Origin: Altererythrobacter sp. Root672
Lineage (GTDB): Bacteria > Pseudomonadota > Alphaproteobacteria > Sphingomonadales > Sphingomonadaceae
Direction: 5' to 3'
DNA length: 64,000 nt
NCBI RefSeq assembly: GCF_001427865.1
Contig: NZ_LMHH01000003.1
Coordinates: 478,359-542,358, forward strand
Under the pieces are notes generated by a model, which was not told the DNA's origin, did no database searches, and worked only from the letters and a program-made list of their open reading frames with translations. Position numbers and translations under genes: made by a program. This document shows positions 33,041 to 36,599 of this stretch, in pieces (position 1 is the first letter of the stretch; every line of letters begins with the position of its first letter).

Positions 33041-33172
33041 TGGCGTTGTGCAATTGGCTCCGGATACACCAATATTCATCAGTAATATCACGTATTTAAG
33101 TTTCAATCTGGTGAATTAGCCTTCCTGGAGCCGGTCAGCAAAACAGCGCTGCGGCTTTATGGGAGAAAACCG

Positions 33173-33298
33173 ATGAAATGGACTAAAGGAAAGCCCGCCC
33201 TTTCGTTGCCAGAACTTGCCAGTCCCGTGGATAAGGCAGGCGCAACCGAGTCGGTAGCCATCATCGCCGTCATTTGGGCGATCGTTATCGCTTCCTGA
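33173..33298 (+). CDS. 41-residue peptide, candidate precursor or membrane peptide
   Basis: ATG 33173 opens a 41-residue frame ending TGA 33298, with GGGAG seven bases upstream. The first half is hydrophilic and basic (MKWTKGKPALSLPELASPVD, residues 1-20), with Lys21 and an AGATES link (22-27). The second half is strongly hydrophobic (SVAIIAVIWAIVIAS, 27-41). No Cys. A five-codon frame (ATG 33159) ends in TGA overlapping its start. A perfect hairpin and then two HEAT-repeat protein genes follow on the same strand. Leader-plus-core layout suggests a modified (RiPP-like) peptide; a simple small membrane protein is the alternative. No known precursor family is recognised. Confidence 0.6.
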   Translation: MKWTKGKPALSLPELASPVDKAGATESVAIIAVIWAIVIAS

Positions 33299-33320
33299 TT
33301 TCGGCCTCTGATTTCAAGAA

Positions 33321-33343
33321 GAGGGGGACTTCGTGTCCCCCTC
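33321..33343 (+). promoter_or_regulatory. intergenic hairpin between peptide gene and HEAT genes
   Basis: Perfect 9-base stem GAGGGGGAC/GTCCCCCTC with loop TTCGT. No T run follows, so it is more likely an attenuator or RNA-stability hairpin that makes the upstream peptide message more abundant than the downstream genes. Confidence 0.6.
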
Positions 33344-33361
33344 ATTCGAGGGGGCCAGGAG

Positions 33362-34207
33362 ATGGAATTCAACGAAATCGCCCAACATCTCGATGATGAG
33401 ATAATTAGGGCGCGTGATCCGGACGCCTTTTTTGATCTGTCATTGAGCGTCTTTGCGGAAGCTCTGGCTCGCAACCTGCACGTCGAAGTCATGAATGGCA
33501 TTTTGACTCAGATACGCGACAATCACTTACCTATTACCGCTGACCGGACGTCTGGAAGTTTCATAGTATTACATAGAACTCCGTTCAGCGGATGGTCTGT
33601 AATATTTCATAATAGAATAACTAGATATTTGTACCTATCTCCTATTAACGCCATTCAATCAAATATAGGGAAGACCGACTCTGTAAAAGTCGTTCGATAT
33701 CGCTGCAATCGGCCAAATGATTTTTCTGTCCTGGATCGTGATCTTTCAATAACTGAGATTGAAAGCGTGACCCCCGGCAAAAATCAGATCGTAATGCGGC
33801 CCGGATCGACTGATATATTGGATTGGCGGCCTGCCAGTGACACGGGGGCGAGGGGTTTGACCCTTCGCCTGAATGGCTCGCCGTTAGAGTCTTTCGAATG
33901 GACCTTTTCTCGAGAGACCAACAAGGCCATTGCCCTCGCGCCAATCGAATCATTTGAAAGCAATTTGACGACTTTATTGACGTTATTATCGACATGCGGA
34001 AACGGCGAAACAGTCGATCTAGTTCTTCCTCTTCTTCAGCATGAACGTCACTTTGTTCGTTGGGCTGCTGCGCAGACGATTGCTGCCATTGACGAAGAAG
34101 CTGGCCTTAAGGCGATCGCCAAGTTGACGTCCGATCCTCATCCTGAGGTGAGGTCTTTGGCTAGATCGAAGGAAAGCCCACTCCTTGGCGGGGAGATAAT
34201 TCGATGA
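33362..34207 (+). CDS. HEAT-repeat protein of unknown function
   Basis: A 281-residue cytosolic protein. Residues 1-60 are helical, about 65-190 look beta-rich (SGSFIVLHRTPFSGWSVIFH; GKNQIVMRPGSTDILDW; TLRLNGSPLESFEW), and 200-270 are HEAT/Armadillo-like helices (VDLVLPLLQHERHFVRWAAA, DPHPEVRSLA). The layout matches the next protein, whose middle part carries cupin metal ligands; here the matching His residues are absent, so this may be the non-catalytic partner. The gene is clearly lower in GC than its flanks. Overlaps the next gene by four bases. Possible peptide-binding role; inferred. Confidence 0.75.
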   Translation: MEFNEIAQHLDDEIIRARDPDAFFDLSLSVFAEALARNLHVEVMNGILTQIRDNHLPITADRTSGSFIVLHRTPFSGWSVIFHNRITRYLYLSPINAIQSNIGKTDSVKVVRYRCNRPNDFSVLDRDLSITEIESVTPGKNQIVMRPGSTDILDWRPASDTGARGLTLRLNGSPLESFEWTFSRETNKAIALAPIESFESNLTTLLTLLSTCGNGETVDLVLPLLQHERHFVRWAAAQTIAAIDEEAGLKAIAKLTSDPHPEVRSLARSKESPLLGGEIIR

Positions 34208-35106
34208 GTCAAATACTCGACATCGAAACAGATAAATCGTTCGAACTTGATGAATTTTTCGATTTCATCACGTCGAATGTCATCCCTGGAGACAGCGACA
34301 GCCTCTTAGAGCACGCATGGTCACTTCGAGCACTGGCAAACAATCGGGAATTTGTTCTGAATTGTTACCACAATGAATTAATTGATATAATTGATGGCGC
34401 GAGCAAAAATGGAAATCAACCTCAGTCTCTGCACATAAAGAGCAATAGTGATTTCTACCTTAGGGCAAATATCTGGTTGCCTATAAAGCTTGGTAAGCGA
34501 ACGGAGGAGTTTGAGAAGAGATTATATTCATATGATTTGCCACACGATCACAACTTTGATTTCTTAACTATTGGGTATTTCGGTCCTGGCTATGAAACCG
34601 ATATATATACGTATGACTATGCTCTGTATGAGGGGTATGCCGGAGAAGGGGTTGACCTCGAATATCAGGGTCGTTTTCAACTCAGTCCTGGGCGGATGAT
34701 CAATTTTCGATCCGGAAAGGACCTTCATATTCAATATGTGCCGGAGGACGTGTCAGTTTCTCTCAATATTATTTGTCGAAATTCAATGCCGAATTGGCAG
34801 CAGCAGTATATTTTCGATGTAGAAGAGTCGAAAATCGTAGGGGGGGCAGGAGATCTACTTTCAAATCGGCTATTCATCATCGAGTCTGCTGGTTGGCTTG
34901 GGAACGATGAAACTGTTGGAATTCTAAAGGATATTATTCGCGATTTTCCATGCGATAAGACCAAGGCGGTGGCATTGAACGCCATTGGAGGCATTGCACC
35001 CGCCGAATTTGAACGCGCTGCCATAGACGCAACTTCTTCTGTTGTTGAGTTGGCCTCCAAGACACCAGTGACAGGCAATTTCGCGAGATCGCACGCCGGT
35101 GGGTGA
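34204..35106 (+). CDS. cupin-like protein with C-terminal HEAT-type helices
   Basis: A 300-residue protein starting in the previous stop (ATGA). A helical N-terminus (1-70) is followed by a jelly-roll-like region with a cupin metal set: His114 and His116 in PHDHNFDF, Glu131 in GPGYETDIY, and His175 in GKDLHIQYVP after LSPGRM (160-165). Residues 215-285 are HEAT-like helices. This fits a mononuclear Fe(II) or other metal oxygenase/epimerase that could modify the upstream peptide. Very AT-rich: 34381-34440 has 23 G/C of 60. Family not recognised. Confidence 0.75.
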   Translation: MSQILDIETDKSFELDEFFDFITSNVIPGDSDSLLEHAWSLRALANNREFVLNCYHNELIDIIDGASKNGNQPQSLHIKSNSDFYLRANIWLPIKLGKRTEEFEKRLYSYDLPHDHNFDFLTIGYFGPGYETDIYTYDYALYEGYAGEGVDLEYQGRFQLSPGRMINFRSGKDLHIQYVPEDVSVSLNIICRNSMPNWQQQYIFDVEESKIVGGAGDLLSNRLFIIESAGWLGNDETVGILKDIIRDFPCDKTKAVALNAIGGIAPAEFERAAIDATSSVVELASKTPVTGNFARSHAGG

Positions 35107-36088
35107 ACGTCCGGACACTCTTCCAGGTCGAAAAAGAGAAAGTGGTCGTCGGCTCGCTTCAATAATTTTCACGTTCGGCTTCCTGTTCATGGCGAGGTGG
35201 ACAGCCGGAGCATTGCCCCCAGAACCAGTCGCAGGGTTCGTGTCAGTAAGTTCCCCGATCCTGGCGGCAATATGGGTTTGGAGAAGCGGCTCGCGGCCGC
35301 AAGGCATCGCGGACATTGCAAAAGTCTGGGCGGGAGCACAGCTTCTCCTTCTCCTGGTGACCTATCCCGAGTGGTTGTCCAGCGAACTCGATCAACCGCT
35401 CCTCTTAGCGGCACTAGCATTTCCGGTGGGACTTCACCTCATGCTTGGGTTTGTTCGGGTTCTGGTGGCGCGGCCGACGGCCCACGATTTGGATGAGCGC
35501 GTTCTTGAGGCGTTTTTTCCGGTGAAGATGGCCCCCGTGTTGCGTCTCGAACTTGGGATATTGTGGGCGGCTTTCACCAGTTGGCGTCGTCCGGGCCTTT
35601 CGACGGGCGAAAGGTCTTTCACATCATACGGCATGATTGCGCCAATGCTTGTTGCGGTACTGGTGCTCAGCTTCGTCGAGATCGCTTTGCTCCATATCGT
35701 CTTGCGGCAGCTGTCGCATGACCTCGCGTCAGTCGTCACCGCGATCGGAATCTTTAGTGCGATCTATATCTTCGGATTGCTGAAATCACTCCGCAATCGC
35801 CCGTCCATCTTGAGCGCCAATCACGTCACTTTGAGGATTGGGAATATCCAATGGGCAAGCTTCCCAAGAACCGTACTGGAAAAGGTAAGCCGAATTCTTC
35901 CAGGCGTGCCGATTGAAGAAGGCCTGGCCAAGATGGGGGCTGCCTCTTCTCCCAACGTCCTGATGCAATTTCATGGACAGATCACTTTGCACGGGCCGTT
36001 TGGAACTTCGAAGTCCGTCTCGAAACTAGGCATCCACGTGGATCGACCGGATGAATTCGTCGACGCATTGCGGTCGGACGGTCCCTAA
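35099..36088 (+). CDS. multispanning membrane protein of unknown function
   Basis: A 329-residue frame with about six hydrophobic segments (IIFTFGFLFMARW; ILAAIWVW; LLLLLVTYPEW; LLLAALAFPVGLHLMLGFV; MLVAVLVLSFVEIALLHIV; VVTAIGIFSAIYIFGLL) and a cytosolic C-terminal domain of about 85 residues. GTG 35099 overlaps the preceding gene by eight bases; ATG 35189 (MARWTAG) is the alternative and would remove the charged N-terminus. GC is nearer host level than the two genes before it, so it may or may not belong to the same unit. Could be an exporter or immunity partner; inferred only. Confidence 0.7.
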   Translation: MGERPDTLPGRKRESGRRLASIIFTFGFLFMARWTAGALPPEPVAGFVSVSSPILAAIWVWRSGSRPQGIADIAKVWAGAQLLLLLVTYPEWLSSELDQPLLLAALAFPVGLHLMLGFVRVLVARPTAHDLDERVLEAFFPVKMAPVLRLELGILWAAFTSWRRPGLSTGERSFTSYGMIAPMLVAVLVLSFVEIALLHIVLRQLSHDLASVVTAIGIFSAIYIFGLLKSLRNRPSILSANHVTLRIGNIQWASFPRTVLEKVSRILPGVPIEEGLAKMGAASSPNVLMQFHGQITLHGPFGTSKSVSKLGIHVDRPDEFVDALRSDGP

Positions 36089-36096
36089 CAGCCCTC

Positions 36097-36492
36097 CTAC
36101 TCCGTCGTCTTCCCATCAAAATGCTCGTGCGCCTTGTGCGCATCCTCGCAAGTCACGTGCACCGTCCCGTCGATATGCTCGGGCGGGCCGTAGATGGTGT
36201 AGAGCTTGAGCGGCGCTGAGCCGGTCGCCTTGACGTTGTGCTTCGCCCCTTGCGGCACGATCACCGCATCGTCGTCCTTCACCGCGTGGTCGACGCCGTC
36301 GATCGAGATGATCCCCTCGCCGCCTTCCACCCGGAAGAACTGGTCGCGGTCGTCGTGGACTTCGGCGCCGATCTCCTCGCCGGGATTGATCGACATCAGC
36401 ACCAGCTGGATATTGTGCCCGGTGTAGATAACCCGGCGGAAGTCGGTGTTATCCAGTGTCAGCTTCTCGATATCGTCGACGAACCCCTTCAC
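36097..36492 (-). CDS. cupin-domain protein
   Basis: A 131-residue single cupin: IQLVLMSINPGEEIGAEVHD, DQFFRVEGGEGIISIDG and AVIVPQGAKHNVKATG. The HxxxxQ/E..H pattern (EVHDDRDQFF; AKHNV) supports a metal site. Start GTG 36492 has AGGAG eight bases upstream; the longer open frame has an Arg-rich, unlikely N-terminus. Convergent with the membrane protein and GC-rich, so probably not part of the island. Confidence 0.85.
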   Translation of the reverse strand: MKGFVDDIEKLTLDNTDFRRVIYTGHNIQLVLMSINPGEEIGAEVHDDRDQFFRVEGGEGIISIDGVDHAVKDDDAVIVPQGAKHNVKATGSAPLKLYTIYGPPEHIDGTVHVTCEDAHKAHEHFDGKTTE

Positions 36493-36599
36493 GCGCGGTC
36501 TCCTGCTGGTTGTGCAGGGAATATGCGGCAGGCGCGGGAATGGTTCCGGGAGGGGCGGGCGACGGCGCCGTGCCGCCGCCCGCATGAGGTCACTTCAGG

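Follow-up and report, generated by a model that had tools for sequence, protein, structure and literature searches.

Within the 64,000-nucleotide stretch of Altererythrobacter sp. Root672 analysed here (contig NZ_LMHH01000003.1, hereafter the window), a compact module was studied in which a small peptide gene precedes two larger, mutually related genes. The peptide gene (33173..33298, + strand) has an ATG start with GGGAG upstream and codes for 41 amino acids (aa; MKWTKGKPALSLPELASPVDKAGATESVAIIAVIWAIVIAS). It is followed by a hairpin with a TTCGT loop (33321..33343, +) and by a HEAT gene (33362..34207, +), whose 281-aa product is referred to as the first protein. This gene overlaps by ATGA the next one (34204..35106, +), which encodes the 300-aa second protein, while the GTG start of a gene for a 329-aa membrane protein with four hydrophobic stretches (35099..36088, +) overlaps the second gene in turn. 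The 41-residue frame, the 9-bp hairpin, the ATGA-coupled pair and the overlapping membrane gene all lie where the first-pass annotation of this DNA had placed them.

The second protein is predicted to consist of a thiol-dioxygenase-like fold with a putative metal site and a tail of HEAT-like helices. In its structural model (mean predicted local distance difference test score, pLDDT, 90.7), residues 9-218 match thiol dioxygenases, the alignment with 4tlf_B having a Z-score of 13.1 and a root-mean-square deviation (rmsd) of 3.5 over 162 residues at 18% identity. Further fold matches include 4qma (Z 13.1), 8vni (13.0), cysteine dioxygenases (12.0-12.7), plant cysteine oxidase (PCO, 11.1-11.5) and ADO (10.2-10.7). 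The likeness to this family is one of predicted fold: the protein has no match above cut-off in Pfam, its sequence search against the PDB gave nothing useful and no thiol dioxygenase, and no known member of the family was matched by sequence in Pfam, NCBIfam or PDB. Among 86 homologues, P113, H114, D115, H116 and N117 (PHDHN), as well as Q177, S186, N188 and Q201, are each invariant (86/86), and H175 is retained in 85/86, L039 being the one that differs. As read from the sequence, the order of H114, H116 and H175 equals the HxH...H of the three-His site of thiol dioxygenases. A cupin metal set of His114, His116, Glu131 and His175 had been proposed earlier; its three histidines hold, but Glu131 was rejected as a ligand, since glutamate falls outside the five most frequent residues at this position in the 86 homologues. 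The 3-His-1-Glu cupin reading thus gives way to a three-His set in a predicted thiol-dioxygenase-like fold. A glutamate is found at position 136 in 78/86 homologues, the window having Thr there.

Judged by sequence, the first protein is a paralogue of the second without the metal site. Its model (pLDDT 84.2) shares the thiol-dioxygenase fold over residues 1-197 (4qma, Z 12.8, rmsd 3.5, 165 residues), followed by HEAT repeats, and it may be regarded as a predicted pseudo-oxygenase. The conserved HxH was not found in it, any HxH at residues 60-230 occurring in only 6/84 sequences. Profile-profile comparison of the two proteins gave an E-value of 2.4e-6 over 138 columns (2.6e-8 in global alignment), and both models run from helices through a beta-sandwich to HEAT-like helices, which bears out the earlier remark that they share a beta-rich middle and a HEAT-like end. 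Pfam recognised HEAT in the first protein, and its sequence search against the PDB returned artificial HEAT-like repeat proteins; HEAT apart, neither Pfam nor NCBIfam gave a match above cut-off for the proteins of the module.

Loci for comparison were initially gathered with the second protein of the window as the query. A scan of species genomes gave 105 relatives, of which 80 were retained, mostly from Sphingomonadales and also from Legionella, Dyella, Maricaulis and Acetobacter; two plasmid records, of Alteromonas and Vibrio, carry a relative as well. The profile A1, built from 86 second-protein sequences, matches in 98/296 genomes of the order Sphingomonadales, 15/398 of the phylum, 2/369 of the class of genome G184 and 6/200 of the order of genome G358, counts which include the window's own genome or the centre genome and two matches that cover the HEAT end alone (G1066 in the window's order, G807 in the order of G358). 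Across much of one family there is usually one enzyme copy per genome. The pairing of the two larger genes is tight: a frame of at least 100 aa ends at the start of the second gene in 91/92 of the first entries (counting the window and its copy L001), and the first-protein profile matches beside the second gene in 178/182 entries, duplicates included. In a quick tree with a midpoint root and noted long branches, the window's second protein stands on a long branch; L110, L153, Legionella and a group from Sphingomonas arise at the same unresolved fork. This position is in keeping with transfer, without being proof of it. In three genomes of genus g7 (G011, G1265 and G1306) the search reports an in-frame stop inside the second-gene match, while the peptide match is retained, 40 kb separating peptide and enzyme in G1306; decay is possible in these genomes.

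The 182 entries represent 148 distinct loci, and 142 of these combine a HEAT match with upstream sequence longer than 400 nt. A strict test for a small upstream frame (ATG, a Shine-Dalgarno-like 4-mer, 34-62 aa, a stop near the next gene and an oily 10-mer in the second half) was passed by 92/142 loci, including the window, compared with 6/1052 other genes of the same loci and 20/2840 dinucleotide shuffles, the criteria having been chosen after examples had been viewed and the control gene starts being first ATGs, uncurated. An iterated peptide profile finds a match in 113/142 loci, the union with the strict test being 124/142. Reading of the remaining 18 loci added seven with a peptide, four of which had been missed by sequence slicing (L035, L095, L007, L141), while in the other three (L115, L043, L054) an ATG-started peptide falls outside the criteria. 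In one doubtful case (L159) the matching frame has only TTG or GTG in place of ATG, and in ten loci (L015, L044, L022, L056, L083, L055, L154, L153, L174, L155) no same-strand upstream peptide was recognised. The first-pass annotation had let its proposal stand or fall with such a frame among the homologues; with 131/142 loci having one, the idea survives.

Among 199 genomes of one family a peptide match (E 0.01) was found in 72, the enzyme in 74 and both in 71. The enzyme-only genomes are the window's own and G279, whose peptides are too divergent for the peptide model A3, and G1069 (locus L174), in which no peptide was found; the single peptide-only genome, G023, is 85% complete. As to unusual arrangements, two different candidate peptides stand in tandem upstream of the pair on the Alteromonas plasmid (L108, 6588-6961). 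In the Legionella loci L055 and L056 the opposite strand bears a frame of 48-55 aa with an IAGAD/LAGAE site, ∼1.0-1.2 kb upstream of the second gene, and in L015 a like opposite-strand frame with an AG site lies downstream of the pair; a Cupin_8 gene (Pfam, L015 and L055) is found near this frame. Perhaps these represent a related peptide arrangement.

The window peptide has a leader-like stretch, LPELASPVDKAG, at residues 12-23 (codons 33206..33241, +), and a hydrophobic tail at residues 28-41. A BLAST search of its 41 residues against the frames of the other loci gave no clear relative; its kinship becomes visible only in the whole-peptide alignment, where SLPELASPVDKAG of the window pairs with SLPDLATPVGVAG of L011. 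This alignment comprises 101 peptides, namely 88 of the 113 found by profile (25 longer than 62 aa, a matter of start choice, were excluded) and 13 divergent ones added by hand. Its leader-like half, IDLxxLPDLxTxTGxFGS, is the more conserved one (P 85/100, L 92/100, G 88/98), the commonest letters of the Val/Ile-rich tail reaching ∼72% at most; between lineages the tail varies widely and yet remains oily. Cysteine is present in 13/101 peptides and absent from 88/101.

Purifying selection acts on the peptide in those relatives that are similar enough for a comparison. Among pairs with a peptide identity of at least 0.6 the ratio dN/dS of nonsynonymous to synonymous rates was below 1 in 38/38 cases (median 0.22), a choice of pairs that favours low dN; the comparison was repeated with pairs picked by an enzyme identity of at least 0.55, among which the proportion of nonsynonymous differences (pN) was lower than that of synonymous ones (pS) in 45/46, with a pooled pN/pS of 0.39. 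The sole exception was L163/L171 (0.53 vs 0.52). Both tests used the 113 profile-found peptides, that of the window being excluded.

The perfect 9-bp stem at 33321-33343 (GAGGGGGAC/GTCCCCCTC) was matched by 1/500 shuffles of the gap, and the terminator scan listed no terminator-like site there on the + strand. The gap between the peptide and the next gene is shorter than 40 nt in 106/124 loci. Of the 18 loci with a gap of at least 40 nt, ten carry perfect stems 8 bp or longer, with unrelated sequences, where 0.55 would be expected from shuffles; two of the ten, L081 and L075, probably owe their long gap to a mis-set gene start, and without them the figure becomes 8/16. This count is an automatic repeat of an earlier hand-picked list, in which stems were seen in 8/17 loci.

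The module is flanked by lysC on one side and by a cupin_2 gene (Pfam, 36097-36585) on the other. In the genus relative G005 (locus L184) the lysC and cupin_2 matches lie 55 nt apart, and the module therefore looks inserted; this empty site was seen in one genome only, the short flanks of L183, L185 and L186 (G004, G001, G002) having no lysC match. The second protein was not found in five genus relatives at E 0.001, one of these genomes being 86% complete. The GC content of the two enzyme-like genes is 0.44-0.46, compared with ∼0.65 in the flanks.

The place given earlier to the membrane protein in the system was revised. The protein of the window belongs to no Pfam family, and BLAST against 90 other loci gave no match save the window's copy L001. 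Weak relatives (19-32% identity; L189-L199) occur in family genomes away from the module: 26 family genomes match the membrane protein, 14 besides the window's own also carry the enzyme, and in none are the listed positions of the two within 80 kb. A role as conserved partner was accordingly rejected. Other loci have other neighbours. In L087 (Acetobacter) and L108 (Alteromonas) the pair is directly followed by genes for an ABC ATPase (Pfam ABC_tran) and a membrane protein. L153 has a membrane protein and an ATPase 0.6-1.4 kb downstream, and L054 has an ATPase together with a permease-like protein on the upstream side, beyond opposite-strand frames; only in L108 does the permease score above the Pfam cut-off, the match in L054 being below it. 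In L012, L115, L022, L110 and L113 (DUF2721) small membrane proteins come after the pair, and no kinship among these and that of the window was detected by BLAST. The yidC gene adjoins the module in L114 (Pfam), where a GTPase gene is also present, and a similar gene does so in L112 and L039; this adjacency is tentatively treated as a matter of genome position and not of partnership or of a functional link to membrane insertion. Anti-phage defence was considered as well and set aside, since PADLOC yielded only a weak HEAT match.

The reading we favour, with a probability of about one in two, is that the module serves peptide maturation and resembles in its logic the clusters of ribosomally synthesised and post-translationally modified peptides (RiPPs), a precursor-like peptide being combined with an oxygenase/pseudo-oxygenase pair; the label "RiPP" is one that we infer. 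The RiPP-like idea of the first-pass annotation is retained insofar as the small frame is conserved, protein-coding, tied to both larger genes and often accompanied by a hairpin if the gap is long enough (10/18), while the fold and the roles of the partners had to be revised. A short, genetically encoded, precursor-like peptide does lie beside the enzymes, and, as had been stated, no known RiPP class is recognisable: the module proteins have no Pfam or NCBIfam match to a known RiPP enzyme. In its N-terminal half (IDLxxLPDLxxxxGxFG or ...AG) the peptide would have a leader held by the inactive twin and/or by the HEAT tails, so that the Val/Ile-rich tail past the FG/AG site could reach Fe(II) in the active twin and be oxidised there with the use of O2. 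The residue attacked would be one other than cysteine, because most of the peptides have none, and oxidation of a peptide thiol was judged unlikely on the same count (Cys in 13/101). The hairpin may allow the peptide to be produced in excess over the enzymes, and cleavage of the product might follow, with export through an ABC transporter in certain lineages. That an enzyme of the thiol-dioxygenase fold, with an inactive leader-binding paralogue, has as its targets the aliphatic or aromatic residues in a tail devoid of Cys and oxidises them, and that the module thereby represents an undescribed class of modified peptides, is a tentative proposal against which the odds stand somewhat. We know of no case in which this fold oxidises such residues of a peptide.

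Several observations weigh against this interpretation. Known thiol dioxygenases have thiols as substrates. The window peptide is itself too divergent for the selection test and the family profiles, and ten of the 142 loci, four of them Legionella, have no recognisable same-strand upstream peptide. Few of the 47 divergent loci with neighbours listed have an identified ABC transporter next to the pair or in its vicinity, and the Pfam scan of 20 neighbour proteins revealed neither a protease nor a maturation enzyme belonging to a known RiPP class. Finally, in Sphingomonadales the tail is conserved too (DD..IVV..VYLYE), as a structural subunit would also show.

Taken together, the conserved order, the selection on the peptide, its leader-like half, the metal-site protein with its inactive twin and the recurrent hairpins are easier to reconcile with a module that handles a peptide than with an attenuator or a frame that arose by chance. 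The notion that the small frame is mere chance or an attenuation leader for the enzyme genes draws on the hairpin that follows it in the window; with pN well under pS in the relatives, conserved protein motifs and fewer than 40 nt left before the next gene in most loci, it seems very improbable and is largely refuted for the Sphingomonadales family. The same evidence does not decide between modification of the peptide and its service as a small subunit, structural or regulatory, in a thiol-dioxygenase-like enzyme of three parts that acts on a small molecule, with the oily tail packed between the paralogous folds. The near-perfect co-occurrence of peptide and enzyme in one family, the conservation there of the tail along with the leader, the many loci without a recognised transporter or protease alongside and the small-thiol enzymes among the fold relatives all agree with such a subunit. 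Against it, the tail varies widely between lineages and yet remains oily, Legionella and some other loci retain the pair without such a frame, and hairpins in ten of the 18 loci with room for one are odd for a subunit made in a fixed ratio. We consider this alternative less likely than modification, but a live rival. In a further alternative, the peptide would be a membrane-active toxin or a signal that the HEAT/oxygenase-fold pair keeps harmless while leaving it chemically unaltered. This would account for the oily tail, and it suits a GC-poor module that is missing at the same site in one relative and occurs on plasmids of Alteromonas and Vibrio; but the invariant PHDHN (86/86) suggests catalysis, the module is usually single-copy per genome in much of one family, and the PADLOC outcome lends little to it, which makes the explanation decidedly improbable.

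The three-gene module is present in about one third of the sampled genomes of the window's order and sporadically, plasmids included, in Gammaproteobacteria and other Alphaproteobacteria, and despite that spread its proteins have no Pfam or NCBIfam family of their own. Searches of an open-access library, which does not cover subscription papers and preprints, turned up no description of the module. If the enzyme acts on the peptide, the known role of the thiol-dioxygenase fold would be widened, and a new kind of peptide cluster, missed by rules built on known RiPP enzymes, would be added. Either way, the function of two conserved, unannotated proteins becomes directly testable.

Compared with known systems, the second protein is like the thiol dioxygenases acting on cysteine, 3-mercaptopropionate or mercaptosuccinate, and like plant cysteine oxidase and ADO, in the predicted fold of residues 9-218 and in the HxH...H order. 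Plant cysteine oxidase and ADO act on the N-terminal Cys of proteins, whereas the peptides studied here mostly lack Cys; in addition, the second protein has an added HEAT-like tail, is paired with a site-less paralogue and has no sequence match in PDB or Pfam. Where cysteine dioxygenase has S-x-H-x-Y, it has S-x-S-x-N in the order as read. The peptides resemble the double-glycine-type leaders of exported peptides in a shared [DE]L-x3-[VT]-x-x-[AF]G pattern with a variable tail behind it, the spacing being slightly off that of the double-glycine pattern; unlike in double-glycine systems, the scanned neighbours include no recognisable C39-peptidase exporter. Nor could an MNIO, an arginase or a TldD-type protease be recognised in the module or these neighbours. 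RiPP clusters of an MNIO plus partner and those of the ornithine hydroxylases PbsQ and BpmG share with the module a short precursor, an enzyme of the non-heme-iron type, putative in the module, and a partner protein (PMC12257519). PbsQ is described there as cupin-like and related to the JmjC protein BpmG, whereas the enzyme of the module is thiol-dioxygenase-like by its predicted fold (PMC12257519).

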